From NCBI RefSeq assembly GCF_002572525.1, contig NZ_PDBS01000001.1, positions 3,596,001-3,660,000 on the forward strand: a stretch of DNA of 64,000 bases, in the 5' to 3' direction. Source of the stretch: Natrinema sp. CBA1119. Its GTDB lineage: Archaea > Halobacteriota > Halobacteria > Halobacteriales > Natrialbaceae. The translations under genes were made by a program, and so were the position numbers. Of the stretch, positions 13,951 to 20,067 are shown in pieces. Each line of letters begins with the position of its first letter. Within the stretch, counting starts at the first letter, position 1. The notes beneath the pieces were generated by a model. It had not been told where the DNA came from. It saw nothing but the letters and a program-made list of their open reading frames with translations, and did no database searches.

Positions 13951-15945
13951 TCAGGCGGGAGCGGCCGTTGCCGACTCCTGACGTTCCATATAATGGAACG
14001 CGACGACAACGAGGACCGCCAGAACGAATCCGCCCGCCTGGATGGTCGACGTTCCCCAGAACATGATGGCAACGAGCACGCCCACTCCGACGGTTTTGAT
14101 GCCGACGGAGACGTACCTGTTGTAGTCGATGTTGAAGTGGATGATAGTGACGATCGCGATGAACGTCGCGAGCAGGTAGATGAACGTCAGCGGTGTGTCA
14201 CTCCCCCACTGAGCGATGCTCGGGTGGTAGATAATCGTGTACGGGAGGATGAATAGCGGCGCTCCCATGATCATCGCCTTCTTCGCCACCTGGGTGAAAT
14301 CCGCTTCGGCGATACCGCTGGCGATGACGGCCGCGAGTGCGACCGGTGGCGTGATTGCCGACAGGATCGCGAAGTAGAACACGAACAGGTGCGTGTTGAA
14401 CTCCGAGATGCCGAGGTCTCCGACGGCCGGTGCGACGAACACCACGACGACGACGTACGCGGCGACGGTCGGCATCCCCAGGCCGAACATGATCGACAGG
14501 ATCATCGCCACGAGGAGTAACGGGAAGAGGAGTTCTCCCGAGAGGCCCAACATGAGGAACGACAGTTCCTGCACGATGTTTCCGCTGCCGAGCATACTGA
14601 CGAAGATCGCAATCGCACCGAGGACGACCATGATCTCCGCGCTGGCTATCGCACCTTTCTGGAGGCCAACTAGCAGGTTACGACCGTAATCCCGGAGCGC
14701 AGACCGTCTGTCACTCATGAGGATCATGTTCCAGACGAGCTGGAGTCCGATGAGGGAGATGACCGAGTGGAAGCCGGCGGTAAGCGGCCCAGTCTGTCGG
14801 ATTCCGAGGTCGTAGATGAGGATCAGCACGGACGCGAGCAGAGGCAAGTAGACGTACCACGGTTGGTCCGCGTCCTGCGTCGTCTCCAGGACCTGCTCGT
14901 CATCTGCGTCGGACTTGCTGAGATCGTACCCTTTACTGACGTAGTAGACGGTGATCGACACGGTGAGGTAAAAGATAACCGCTGGGAGCAACGCCCCCAC
15001 GACGACGTCGAGGTAGCTGATGTTCAGGAAGGAGGCCATGACGAACGCCGAGGCCCCCATAATCGGGGGAAGGACCTGGCCGCCCGACGAGGCGTTCGAT
15101 TCGATGGCCGCAGCGGTTTCGCCGTCCATCCCGTAACTCTTCATCAGCGGAATCGTCACGGCACCCGTCGTCGCGGTGTTGGCCGCGGCACTGCCCGATA
15201 TCGATCCCATGACGAAGCTCGTCACGACCGCCAGTTGCGGCACGCCGGACTGCAGGTGTTTGTTCATCCGTCTCCCGAAGTCGATAGCCAGTTGCAGCGC
15301 ACCGAACTCGATCAGGAGACTCGCATAGACGAGGAAGATGACGATCCACTGCGCGCCGACGCCGGGGAGGAATCCGAAGAGTCCGATGTCGAACACGAGG
15401 GAGGACCGCTCGAGGACACGCATTAGCGTGATGCTGCTGTGACCGAACGCCCCGGGAATGTACGATCCGAACATCGCGTACCCGACCGACAGAACGACGA
15501 TCCCGGAGACGAAGAACCCGTATCTGAGGTACGTGAAGAGGAGTATTAATATGACTAATACGAGCGCGAACATGTACTCCATCTGCGTGTAGTTGAGAAT
15601 TCGAGACAGCATCTCGGAGTACGTCGTCACGAAATAGTACGTGATGTAGAGCATCAACGCTGACGTGGCCAACTTCGCGACGAACAGCACCTTGCCGGAG
15701 ATCGCATCCAGATCGGCTTCGACCAGCTGGACCATCAAAAACACCGATAGACACAGCGAAATGATGGTATGTTGGTCGCTATTTACGAGATACGTATACC
15801 CGTATGCGATGTGATAGACAGAGAAGACGAGTGCGCTGAGGGTGAGTAACAGCCATTGTGCGTTCTCGAGCGTGAAATTCAGTGCCGGTAACTGGTCCCC
15901 TTTCTCTTCTAAACTCAGTTCCTGATCGGAGGATGTGTTCGACAT
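13951..15945 (-). CDS. TRAP transporter fused permease (DctQM-type, TAXI partner)
   Basis: A 664-aa polytopic membrane protein, the length of fused 4TM+12TM TRAP permeases. The soluble N-terminus (about 35 aa) is followed by many hydrophobic segments. Family blocks include GVGAQWIVIFLVYASLLIEF, FVMGSISGSAAANTATTGAV, ASSGGQVLPPIMGASAFVMA and LGMPTVAAYVVVVVFVAP, which are the DctM domain. It would import a carboxylate with a Na+ or H+ gradient using the TAXI binding protein encoded 25 bases upstream. It is the likely uptake system for the acids processed by the surrounding CoA enzymes. The substrate is unknown. Confidence 0.92.
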   Translation of the reverse strand: MSNTSSDQELSLEEKGDQLPALNFTLENAQWLLLTLSALVFSVYHIAYGYTYLVNSDQHTIISLCLSVFLMVQLVEADLDAISGKVLFVAKLATSALMLYITYYFVTTYSEMLSRILNYTQMEYMFALVLVILILLFTYLRYGFFVSGIVVLSVGYAMFGSYIPGAFGHSSITLMRVLERSSLVFDIGLFGFLPGVGAQWIVIFLVYASLLIEFGALQLAIDFGRRMNKHLQSGVPQLAVVTSFVMGSISGSAAANTATTGAVTIPLMKSYGMDGETAAAIESNASSGGQVLPPIMGASAFVMASFLNISYLDVVVGALLPAVIFYLTVSITVYYVSKGYDLSKSDADDEQVLETTQDADQPWYVYLPLLASVLILIYDLGIRQTGPLTAGFHSVISLIGLQLVWNMILMSDRRSALRDYGRNLLVGLQKGAIASAEIMVVLGAIAIFVSMLGSGNIVQELSFLMLGLSGELLFPLLLVAMILSIMFGLGMPTVAAYVVVVVFVAPAVGDLGISEFNTHLFVFYFAILSAITPPVALAAVIASGIAEADFTQVAKKAMIMGAPLFILPYTIIYHPSIAQWGSDTPLTFIYLLATFIAIVTIIHFNIDYNRYVSVGIKTVGVGVLVAIMFWGTSTIQAGGFVLAVLVVVAFHYMERQESATAAPA

Positions 15946-15970: not shown

Positions 15971-17014
15971 TTATCCTTCGATCAGGTCTTCGTTCCAGAG
16001 ATCGTTCTCCTGATACCACTCGACGGCTCCCGGATGGACCGGCGACTGCGTGAGCCCCTCTACCGCGTACTCCTCGTTGAACAGTCCGAGGGCGTCGTGG
16101 ACGTCCTGAATCTCTTCTACGTTGCTGAACGAGATTTCACAGAACTCCTTGACGAGTTCGTTACTGAGGTCAGGGTGAACGAACCACTGGTACGGCGCCG
16201 TCGGCGATTGGACCGTGTCGATGTTCGTCTCGAACCCGAAGACCTCGTTGACCGGCACCTCGGTGACGTTGAGGTACGGGTCCTCTTCGATCGTCGAAAG
16301 CTGATCGTCGCTGAACTCGAGGACTCGCAGGCTGTCCATGCTATTTAGCTGTTCGGCCCATCCGGGAAGCGACGTCCCGCTCGCCATCACGTACGTGTAC
16401 GCGGCATCGACTCGTCCTTCCTCGAGAGCGAAGGGAATGTCCGACCAGTCTCCCTGTGTGAGTTCGATGTCTTCGTAGAGTCCGACGCTGTCGAAGGGAA
16501 TTGCACCGACGAAGCGGGACCCGGCAGCGCCGTTGTGAACGGTCTTCCCCGCCAAGTCGTCGATCGATTGGATGCTATCGTCCGCCGTCACCCAGAACGG
16601 ACGGATATCGGCGATCGCCATGACCTGTTGTGGGACGGTCGGAACGGTGTTGTCACCACCGAACTGGGCGCCCGGTCGACTCTCTTCGTTATAAGAGGCC
16701 ATCCCCATCGCGCTCGTCCCTCGAGTGATGTGATTCTCACCCTGGGCACAGAGCCTGTAGGCCTCTTCCGACCCACCAGTCGTGTTGAGGGTCAGGTTGA
16801 TATCCGTATCAGCGTTCTCGAAAAGCTGGGCCCACCCGCTTGCCTTTATGTATCCGATCGTTCCCTCGCGCGTAATCCCGAAACTCCAATCGGTGGTATC
16901 ACTTTCAACGCTACTATCACCGTTTCCCCCACCGATACAGCCCGCTAACCCTGCTAGTCCCGCTACACCTGCGGCCGTCATAAAGCGCCGTCTGTTGTAC
17001 GACATCCGTGTCAT
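15971..17014 (-). CDS. TAXI-family TRAP transporter solute-binding lipoprotein
   Basis: A 347-aa extracytoplasmic binding protein (ATG 17014; the alternative start at 17005 begins MSYNRRRFM). The N-terminus has a Tat motif (RRRFM) and a lipobox with C26 (GLAGLAGCIGG), so it is exported folded and lipid-anchored. TAXI features include EGTIGYIKASGWAQLFENAD, TGGSEEAYRLCAQGENHI and DLAGKTVHNGAAGSRF. It feeds the permease gene 25 bases downstream. The start region lies in an exact three-copy 34-bp tandem repeat, which puts extra out-of-frame start codons between the promoter and the true start; see findings. Confidence 0.92.
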   Translation of the reverse strand: MTRMSYNRRRFMTAAGVAGLAGLAGCIGGGNGDSSVESDTTDWSFGITREGTIGYIKASGWAQLFENADTDINLTLNTTGGSEEAYRLCAQGENHITRGTSAMGMASYNEESRPGAQFGGDNTVPTVPQQVMAIADIRPFWVTADDSIQSIDDLAGKTVHNGAAGSRFVGAIPFDSVGLYEDIELTQGDWSDIPFALEEGRVDAAYTYVMASGTSLPGWAEQLNSMDSLRVLEFSDDQLSTIEEDPYLNVTEVPVNEVFGFETNIDTVQSPTAPYQWFVHPDLSNELVKEFCEISFSNVEEIQDVHDALGLFNEEYAVEGLTQSPVHPGAVEWYQENDLWNEDLIEG

Positions 17015-17088
17015 GATGACGCCGTCTGTTGTACGACATCCGTGTCATGATGACGCCGTCTGTTGTACGACATCCGTGTCATGATGAC
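16987..17088 (-). repeat. exact 3 x 34-bp tandem repeat over the TAXI start codon
   Basis: Three identical 34-bp units occupy 16987-17020, 17021-17054 and 17055-17088. Each carries the coding-strand start segment ATGACACGGATGTCGTACAA. Only the gene-proximal unit is in frame with the binding protein. Because 34 is not a multiple of three, each added unit shifts frame. Confidence 0.97.
17011..17082 (-). other. repeat-derived 23-codon upstream ORF overlapping the TAXI start
   Basis: From the ATG of the distal repeat unit (17082) the frame reads MTRMSYNRRRHHDTDVVQQT, then AlaSerSer, then TGA at 17013-17011. That stop overlaps the ATG of the binding-protein gene (17014) as ATGA. If the transcript starts near 17082, as the TATA box suggests, ribosomes would translate this peptide first and reach the gene by coupled re-initiation. 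Confidence 0.5.
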
Positions 17089-17097
17089 ACAATCCAA

Positions 17098-17112
17098 ACC
17101 ATATATACTTAT
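17098..17112 (-). promoter_or_regulatory. TATA-rich promoter for the TRAP operon
   Basis: The segment around 17098-17112 reads AAGTATATATGG on the coding strand, with a second TATA-like run at about 17113-17125. It lies about 20-30 bases before the ATG of the outermost 34-bp unit and about 90 bases before the true start, so the tandem repeat separates promoter and gene. Confidence 0.6.
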
Positions 17113-17255
17113 TTGTATATATCACATACATTCGGCAAGAATTGAAGAGGGAATGAAAACCGACGACCTCGTCTGACGACCGACACACCCATCGGCCGAT
17201 TTCGAGTCACTTCGACCGAGCGAAACGCGGGAGAGCGAACTCACCGTTCGATCCA

Positions 17256-17480
17256 TCAGTAGGACTTCGGCAGTCCCCGTTCGCGCTCGGCGATGAAGGT
17301 CTTCGCCAGTTCGTTGGAAACGGGACCGATCTGGAAAAAGCGAGCGTCCCGCCACAACAGATCGATATCGTACTCCTCGTCACCGACCAGCCGCCAAACG
17401 TCTGCATTCCGTGGCTTGCCGCCTCGTATGCGGCGTTCGATGTCACGACTTTCGCCGAATTCGCAGCGATCCCGACGCCG
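17256..17480 (-). pseudogene. acyl-CoA dehydrogenase C-terminal remnant with frameshift
   Basis: On the minus strand one frame gives IAANSAKVVTSNAAYEAASH and MQTFGG. After a frame change near 17395 a second frame gives LVGDEEYDIDLLWRDARFFQ, then IGPVSNELAKTFIAERERGL and PKSY, stopping at 17256-17258. This is the last ~75 residues of an acyl-CoA dehydrogenase, including the SNE catalytic-glutamate segment. The N-terminal four fifths are absent and the IclR gene begins 84 bases beyond. It is a relic of a gene lost by deletion. Confidence 0.88.
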
Positions 17481-17564
17481 TCGCCGTCGCGGTCGACGAG
17501 AAACATCGTGATCCCGTGGGTCCGGTCCCTCTCGTCGGCTATCGGATGCCCGTCCGATCGGCGC

Positions 17565-18308
17565 TCACGCGTGGGCGATCTCGAGTTCGAGTTCGTTCAC
17601 CGTCTCCAGCAGTGTCGTCGAAAGCTCGTCTTTCACGCCGGGTCGGCCGAGTCGGTTCGCCGGCACCGAGACGCTCATGCTTCCGAGGACACGCTTCTCG
17701 TCGTCGAACACCGGAGCGCCGACGGACCAGAGTCGCTCGACGTATTCGCCGTCGTTGAACGCCAGTCCTCGCGAACGGACGTTCCGAAGCGCTTCCCGGA
17801 GCGCATCCAGGTCGGTGATCGTGTTCGGCGTTACCTGCCGCCGATCGGATTCGGAGACGATCATCTCGATTCGTTCCGGCGGGAGGTTGGCGAGTATCGC
17901 CTTGCCGCTCGCCGTCGCGTGCAACGGCACGAAATCTCCCGTGTGAACTCCGGTTCGGACGGCGTTCTCGCCGGTTTCCGAGTAGAGGAACACCGCGTTC
18001 GTTCCCTCCCTGACGACGTAGTGGGCGCGTTCGCCCGTCCGTCGAGCCAGTTCCACCACCTTCTCACGGGCGGCGATCCGGTGTGGTTCACGACGGCGCG
18101 TGTCCAATCCGAACTGAAGAAACCGAAGCGAGAGTTCGAGATCGTCGCCGGACTGGACTAGGTAGCCGGAGCGTTTGAGCGTCTCGACGTGGCTGTGAAC
18201 GGTGCTTTTTGCGAGGCCGGTCTCGTCGGCGAGCGCCGTCACGCCGGCCCGGTCGTTTTGGTGAACCGCCTCGAGGATCGCCAGCGAATTCTCGGTTGCG
18301 TCGATCAT
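17565..18308 (-). CDS. IclR-family transcriptional regulator
   Basis: A 247-aa regulator from the ATG at 18308 (MIDATENSLAILEAVHQNDR). A Shine-Dalgarno GGAGGAA sits just upstream and fixes the start, although the frame is open much further. The N-terminal winged helix has VTALADETGLAKSTVHSHVE and LKRSGYLVQSGDD. The C-terminal GAF-like effector domain has SGKAILANLPPERIEMIV and GLAFNDGEYVERLWSVGAPV. It is divergent from the acyl-CoA dehydrogenase at 18647 with a 338-base shared intergenic region, and is the likely local regulator of that gene and perhaps of the TRAP operon. The effector is unknown. Confidence 0.93.
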   Translation of the reverse strand: MIDATENSLAILEAVHQNDRAGVTALADETGLAKSTVHSHVETLKRSGYLVQSGDDLELSLRFLQFGLDTRRREPHRIAAREKVVELARRTGERAHYVVREGTNAVFLYSETGENAVRTGVHTGDFVPLHATASGKAILANLPPERIEMIVSESDRRQVTPNTITDLDALREALRNVRSRGLAFNDGEYVERLWSVGAPVFDDEKRVLGSMSVSVPANRLGRPGVKDELSTTLLETVNELELEIAHA

Positions 18309-18646
18309 GTGTTCCTCCGGCGGGGTCTCACGGCCCGTCGATCGGTAGTTCGCCCCTGCCGAACGAGATGTGGTTCGATCAGTTGCCACATAACGGTGCT
18401 GTTTCCCGTTCGGGAGGCCCTGCCGAACGAGTTCCGGATGGACGTTCGTCTCGCATCGATGCGCGCCGTCGAGAATTCGGTCCAAAGATGTAAGCTGGCG
18501 GTCGACAGCGGGCAAATTCCGCCGAACGATCGTTCCGTGGACGCGTTCACGCCTCCCGAACACCGAATCCTCACGAACCCTGTCTCGTCGCATTATTTTC
18601 GAGTGATTTCAACGTTTATTTTCTGAAACACTTATGATCGTGGGTC
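18309..18646. promoter_or_regulatory. divergent promoter region between IclR gene and acyl-CoA dehydrogenase
   Basis: The 338-base region has a Shine-Dalgarno for the IclR gene (GGAGGAA, plus-strand 18312-18318) and a TATA-like gtttatttt at 18614-18622, 25-33 bases before ATG 18647. A likely IclR operator should lie here. I could not pick out a convincing palindrome by eye. Confidence 0.5.
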
Positions 18647-19957
18647 ATGTCAGATGAGGCATCCGCTATGATCGGGGAAGACACGGTCCTGACAGACGAG
18701 GAAGAGGAGTATCTTGCCGACGCGATAACCACCCTCGAGACCGAGGTGTTCGTCGATGGGCTCGGCCACGACCACTTCCGAGCACTCGACGAGAACGAGG
18801 GCTCTCGAGAGGAGTGGCAGGAGTACGTCAGCCGCATGGGGGACGCCGGCTTCAACGCCATCTCGGTCCCCGAGGCGCACGGCGGTCCGGGCGGGACCAT
18901 CATCGAGACGGTGCTGGCCGAACAAGCGATCGGCTACTGCGGCAACATCGTCCACGCCTGCCAGACATCGCTGACGCAACACGTCGGACGGACGATGTAC
19001 GAACACGGCAACCAGCACATCACGGAGGAGTATCTCGAGCCGATGGCCGCGGGCGATCTCGTCGTGGCGCAGGCCTATACGGAACCCCGGAGCGGAACAG
19101 ATCTCGCCCATCTCGAGACCGACGCCGAGAAGGACGGCGACGAGTGGGTGATCAACGGCGAGAAGCGATTCATCGACTTCGCGCCCTACGCTGACTTCTA
19201 CTTCACGCCCGTGCGTACAAGCGGCGAAGACGGCGACCGTGAGGGCGTCTCGATTATCGTGATCGATCGTGATACCGACGGTATCGAACTCCTGCAGGAC
19301 CAGTCCGATTGGCACGGCTTCCGGGGGACTGGAGCGTCGTGGATGCAGTTCGACGACGTCCGCGTGCCCGAGGCCAACCTCGTGGGGAACGAGGGCGAGG
19401 CGTGGTCGTACATCACCGACGAACTCAACCTCGAACACCTGACCGTCGCCCGCTACTGTCTCGGAGCGAGCCAGCAAGCGCTCGAGATCGCCGCCAACTA
19501 CACCGCCAACCGAGAGGTCAACGAACGACCGGTCTCGCGGTACCAGGCCGTCAATCACAAGGTCGCCGAGATGGTGACGAAGCTCGACGGGGCGTACCTG
19601 CTTAACACCCGTGCAGCCCGGATTATGGACGATCGCGGCGTCTCCGCCGGCCGGATGGAGAGCGCGATGGCGAAGTGGCTCGGCAACGAGCTGGCTCACG
19701 AGATCGCCGACACCTGCATCCAGATCATGGGCGGAATCGGGACGACCACGTCGTATCCGGTCGAGCAGACCCAGCGCGACGTCCGCGCTGGCAGGTTCAT
19801 GGGCGGTGCGACCGAGGTCATGAAGAGCGTCGTCCAACACGACGCCTACCAGCTGCTTCTGGACGAGGAGTTCGACGCCGACCTCGTCGGCAACGAACGC
19901 GAGGGGCTCCCCTGGTTGAGCGAAGACGAGCAACCGGCACGGATAGCGGACGAGTAG
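18647..19957 (+). CDS. acyl-CoA dehydrogenase (long form)
   Basis: A 436-aa acyl-CoA dehydrogenase, about 50 residues longer than its neighbours, with extensions at both ends (acidic N-terminus MSDEASAMIGEDTVLTDEEE and a C-terminal tail after the catalytic helix). Blocks are VPEAHGGPGGTIIET, YTEPRSGTDLAHLET, NGEKRFIDFAPYAD, QIMGGIGTTTSYPVEQTQRD and FMGGATEVMKSV. E390 takes the catalytic-base position. A TATA-like box at 18614 supports the start. It is divergently paired with an IclR regulator. The GxxTxSYPVEQTQRD segment differs from the usual YDVERYWRD, so it is a distinct subfamily. Confidence 0.92.
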   Translation: MSDEASAMIGEDTVLTDEEEEYLADAITTLETEVFVDGLGHDHFRALDENEGSREEWQEYVSRMGDAGFNAISVPEAHGGPGGTIIETVLAEQAIGYCGNIVHACQTSLTQHVGRTMYEHGNQHITEEYLEPMAAGDLVVAQAYTEPRSGTDLAHLETDAEKDGDEWVINGEKRFIDFAPYADFYFTPVRTSGEDGDREGVSIIVIDRDTDGIELLQDQSDWHGFRGTGASWMQFDDVRVPEANLVGNEGEAWSYITDELNLEHLTVARYCLGASQQALEIAANYTANREVNERPVSRYQAVNHKVAEMVTKLDGAYLLNTRAARIMDDRGVSAGRMESAMAKWLGNELAHEIADTCIQIMGGIGTTTSYPVEQTQRDVRAGRFMGGATEVMKSVVQHDAYQLLLDEEFDADLVGNEREGLPWLSEDEQPARIADE

Positions 19958-19970
19958 CAGCTCGAACACA

Positions 19971-20067
19971 CCGCAGCGAATTACGACGGTCGATTAACCG
20001 TAGCGAACCACGACGATCGATTAACCGTAGCGAACCACGACGATCGATTACACCGTAGCGCATCGCT
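19971..20067. repeat. about 3.5 copies of a 27-bp tandem repeat
   Basis: Units ccgtagcgaaccacgacgat + cgattaa recur at 19998-20024 and 20025-20051 (the last bases differ). A diverged first copy lies at 19971-19997 and a partial copy begins at 20053. The array sits just after the acyl-CoA dehydrogenase stop (19957) and is non-coding. Confidence 0.9.

Follow-up and report, generated by a model that had tools for sequence, protein, structure and literature searches.

The window analysed here, a 64,000-nucleotide stretch of the genome of Natrinema sp. CBA1119, carries on its minus strand an operon in which an intact solute-binding protein gene and an intact fused permease gene of the TRAP transporter type stand side by side, and three exact copies of a 34-bp unit lie across the start of the binding-protein gene (Table 1). 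The adjacent binding protein and permease both exceed the cut-offs of the curated models (91.0 bits against a cut-off of 84.35 for TIGR02122, and 373.7 bits against 320.65 for TIGR02123), which places the locus among the TAXI-type TRAP transporters; it shares both subunits with these systems and differs from them in the start region alone, through the extra copies. The N-terminus of the binding protein is a signal sequence with a twin-arginine and a lipobox-like Cys. Compared with its orthologues, the binding-protein gene has a dN/dS of 0.13-0.19, a value that speaks for long-term purifying selection and hence for a function in the past, though not necessarily today. Between the array and the gene for an IclR-family regulator, immediately upstream of the former, is what is left of an acyl-CoA dehydrogenase gene. 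The remnant corresponds to residues ~308-388 of N. caseinilyticum NJT13_RS19790, with 74% and 90% identity in its two frames, and a complete acyl-CoA dehydrogenase gene occupies the syntenic place in N. caseinilyticum.

Table 1. Features at the start of the TAXI-type TRAP operon and around it (positions in the window).
Feature	Position	Strand	Basis or remark
TRAP transporter fused permease gene, intact, in one operon with the binding protein	13951..15945	minus	TIGR02123
TAXI-type TRAP solute-binding protein gene, 347 aa, intact	15971..17014	minus	TIGR02122
Exact direct repeat, 3 x 34 bp, unit (minus-strand reading) GTCATCATGACACGGATGTCGTACAACAGACGGC	16987..17088	minus	sequence, TRF
Decoy ORF (23 codons if read from ATG 17082, 20 if read from 17073)	17011..17082	minus	frame computation
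Codon-4 ATG of the outermost copy (putative first AUG)	17071..17073	minus	inferred from the promoter model
BRE+TATA model match, 7.87 bits, top site in 17250-16900	17101..17114	minus	predicted TSS 17077
TATA box TATATA	17102..17107	minus	conserved as TAT[T/A]TA in three orthologues
Acyl-CoA dehydrogenase gene remnant, last ~80 codons, two frames, frameshifted	17259..17500	minus	
IclR-family regulator gene (longest ORF)	17565..18593	minus	N. caseinilyticum orthologue aligns from 18308

The tandem repeat had been noticed earlier from the letters of the DNA, and its description as an exact 3 x 34-bp array at the binding-protein start (17088-16987, minus strand) was confirmed by TRF, which called 16986-17088 with a period of 34, 3.0 copies, a 100% match and no indels. 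At lags of 20-60, exact matches extend to 69 bases in the array and to 10-14 bases in ten 64-kb Markov simulations, and the array is far beyond chance expectation. At their ends, the units have about 1 base in common with the flanking sequence. Across 2.06 Mb of the chromosome, 16 near-perfect tandem arrays (at least 97% identity, period at least 15) were counted, this one included, and by our own reading of the ORFs listed it is the only one of the 16 with a likely start codon inside the repeat unit. The folding of the array was unremarkable (z of -1.57 as RNA and -0.42 as DNA), and on these values an RNA structure of the array acting as a regulator was rejected. It is very improbable that the copy number is an assembly or sequencing artefact; ordinary reads can span the 103-bp array, which lies in a contig of 4.09 Mb. 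Other tandem repeats were seen as well: a 27-bp unit present 3.3 times (92%) at 19970-20060 of the window, just beyond the acyl-CoA dehydrogenase gene at 18647-19957; a 26-bp unit present 13.2 times (98% match) at C1:38352-38694 of the Natrinema genome (in L037), intergenic and upstream of a small ORF; and a perfect 32-bp unit present 6.2 times at C1:170677-170875 (in L044), flanked by two convergent ORFs.

Near orthologues of the locus are rare. The comparison covered one genome per species and was made with three independent ones, from N. caseinilyticum (L003), Halomarina halobia (L011) and G390, which belongs to another family (L012); L014 is identical to the Halomarina locus and was left out as a fourth. 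The unit is present once in all three orthologues, and each has TAT[T/A]TA at -25 to -20 from its ATG, the same spacing as that to the outermost ATG in the window. The 45 nucleotides before the outermost ATG agree with G390 at 37, with N. caseinilyticum at 34 and with Halomarina at 27 of 45 positions, whereas for the 45 nucleotides before the inner ATG the corresponding numbers are 18, 14 and 17. Because the orthologues are single-copy and their upstream sequence matches that of the outermost and not the inner copy, the comparison indicates that one copy is the ancestral state and that the array expanded downstream of a promoter that has not moved. The proposal of a one-copy ancestor whose promoter was tied to the outermost copy is thereby upheld. 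The three copies are identical to one another despite the change of about 0.5 of the synonymous sites relative to the orthologues, and the array is therefore young.

The position of the promoter was assessed with a BRE+TATA model trained on 589 unambiguous starts taken from 2.06 Mb of the Natrinema genome, in which the modal site starts at -37 from the ATG and 71% of sites fall at -36 to -39. The earlier note had put the TATA box at leaderless distance from ATG 17082, but the spacing is about 5 nt too short: the top site starts at -32 from this ATG, outside the standard leaderless range, and the predicted transcription start falls at +6 (range 17078-17075), not far into the outermost copy. Since the TATA box is too near ATG 17082 and the predicted start lies downstream of it, the transcript probably has its first AUG at codon 4 (17073), preceded by a predicted leader of 2-5 nt. 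In Haloferax volcanii, the TATA box of leaderless genes is found at -29 to -25 (PMC3986360), and 72% of protein-coding transcripts are leaderless, with leaders of 0-5 nt (PMC4983044), a class into which the predicted leader before 17073 would fall. The -32 site is also the best one in N. caseinilyticum and in Halomarina (12.6 bits there), while in G390 a site at -30 scores best and the -32 site second. In all three orthologues (L003, L011 and L012), too, the TATA box and the first ATG of the TAXI gene lie about 5 nt nearer to each other than the model expects, and the model suggests that codon 4 is the true start of the gene across the whole family. A second, weaker site at 17120 (5.14 bits) is not conserved; it would place the transcription start at 17083, leaderless for ATG 17082. 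A promoter inside the array was rejected, as the learned model found none there and the best internal site reached only 2.48 bits.

The consequences of the array for translation were followed by computing all reading frames for 1-9 copies of the unit. With the three copies present, the frame from ATG 17082 runs through 23 sense codons, as had been claimed, and its TGA (17013-17011) overlaps the ATG of the gene (17014-17012) as ATGA, the stop/start overlap of a termination-reinitiation pair. With one copy the gene is read directly, and with two copies the product is a 43-residue peptide, out of frame. From three copies upward, the outermost frame always ends at the ATGA in the third copy; the idea that a fourth copy would restore an in-frame N-terminal extension thus failed over the whole range computed. 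Only odd copy numbers (n) connect to the gene, by way of (n-1)/2 chained re-initiations, and this rule arises because the gene begins with ATGA and the unit has 3k+1 bases. When the 589 clear starts of the Natrinema genome were triplicated in silico with the same geometry, 163 (28%) gave exact ATGA coupling. The overlap was accordingly rejected as a mark of selection, given that geometry alone yields it at this rate, and the odd/even frame rule with its ATGA coupling is a by-product, with no evidence of design.

Taken together, these results are best explained by a recent triplication of the start codon that is private to this genome, after which the gene has come to depend on termination-reinitiation or on weak internal initiation, with a probably lower output; we give this reading a probability of about 0.6. 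A 34-bp stretch at the start of the intact TAXI-TRAP gene would have been duplicated in tandem, and a second step would have led to three copies. Transcription would still begin at the old promoter, a few bases within the outermost copy, and a ribosome on the nearly leaderless mRNA would start in that copy and read a frame other than that of the gene. It would make a decoy peptide of 20 (or 23) codons that terminates in the AUGA of the innermost copy, and the binding protein could then be made only if ribosomes re-initiate after termination, at the AUG at 17014 or the one at 17005, or if some initiate internally. That three-copy expression needs re-initiation, as suggested in the earlier note, is what we infer too, with internal initiation as the alternative. 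The level of the binding protein is most likely reduced, not absent.

Among known systems, the arrangement comes near to the overlapping gene pairs coupled by termination-reinitiation in another haloarchaeon, H. volcanii (Huber et al. 2019, PMC6728339), where the upstream frame and the downstream gene likewise share a four-base AUGA overlap within a single mRNA. The Natrinema arrangement differs from these pairs in that its upstream frame is a decoy of 20-23 codons derived from the duplicated start of the gene itself and not a conserved gene, and in that no Shine-Dalgarno (SD) motif precedes the downstream start. No SD-like motif was found upstream of the inner ATG, so re-initiation may be weak. 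If few ribosomes re-initiate, the array could amount to a silencing of the gene, in a locus that is decaying, as would fit with the acyl-CoA dehydrogenase neighbour in the same cluster, which is already a frameshifted remnant. We consider silencing unlikely, however, since the binding protein and the permease are both intact, the dN/dS of the former points to long-term purifying selection, and termination-reinitiation at ATGA has been shown by experiment in H. volcanii, where an SD motif improved it without being indispensable (PMC6728339). The opposite outcome, in which ribosomes initiate directly at the inner start behind an SD-less leader of 60-70 nt and the outer copies are mostly neutral, draws on the finding that SD-less 5'-UTRs also support initiation in H. 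volcanii (PMC3986360), and for this reason coupling at the Natrinema start may not be strict. It is nonetheless improbable that the array has so little effect: the outer AUG sits where a leaderless start would be expected, leaderless initiation is the main route in haloarchaea (PMC4983044), and in the overlapping pairs of H. volcanii translation of the downstream gene depended strictly on the upstream gene (PMC6728339).

In bacteria, contingency loci vary in phase through tandem repeats located at the 5' ends of genes. The Natrinema array resembles them in having a tandem repeat at the start codon with a unit not divisible by three, such that the copy number sets the frame. The likeness raises the question of whether units are gained and lost often enough to tune binding-protein expression within a population, with one copy fully on, higher odd numbers weak because they need re-initiation, and even numbers off. 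Adjacent perfect 34-bp units are able to recombine or slip, and on paper the frames obey a strict odd/even rule. Yet the rule comes automatically with a gene that starts in ATGA and a unit of this length, the array is missing from all three orthologues, and the gene is of a metabolic type with no known need for bet-hedging. The array also departs from contingency loci in its long unit (34 bp) and its three copies, in that copy-number change would be hypothetical here, and in that re-initiation gives its frames an odd/even rule in place of a period-three one. A search of titles and abstracts of the open-licence literature returned nothing relevant on tandem-repeat phase variation in haloarchaea. 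A copy-number switch is thus possible, but nothing favours it over chance mutation, and we regard it as improbable; that odd and even numbers of start units connect and disconnect a leaderless promoter and a transporter gene in an archaeon, through chained AUGA re-initiation, is in our view a long shot. Most likely the array is a snapshot of an ordinary mutation and not an evolved switch.

Under the preferred reading of a recent, private triplication, the locus offers a clean natural case in which to study the survival of a leaderless gene after the out-of-frame duplication of its start, and it bears on how efficient SD-less AUGA re-initiation is in haloarchaea. If the copy number did prove to vary, the locus would represent an archaeal expression switch of an unusual, odd/even kind.
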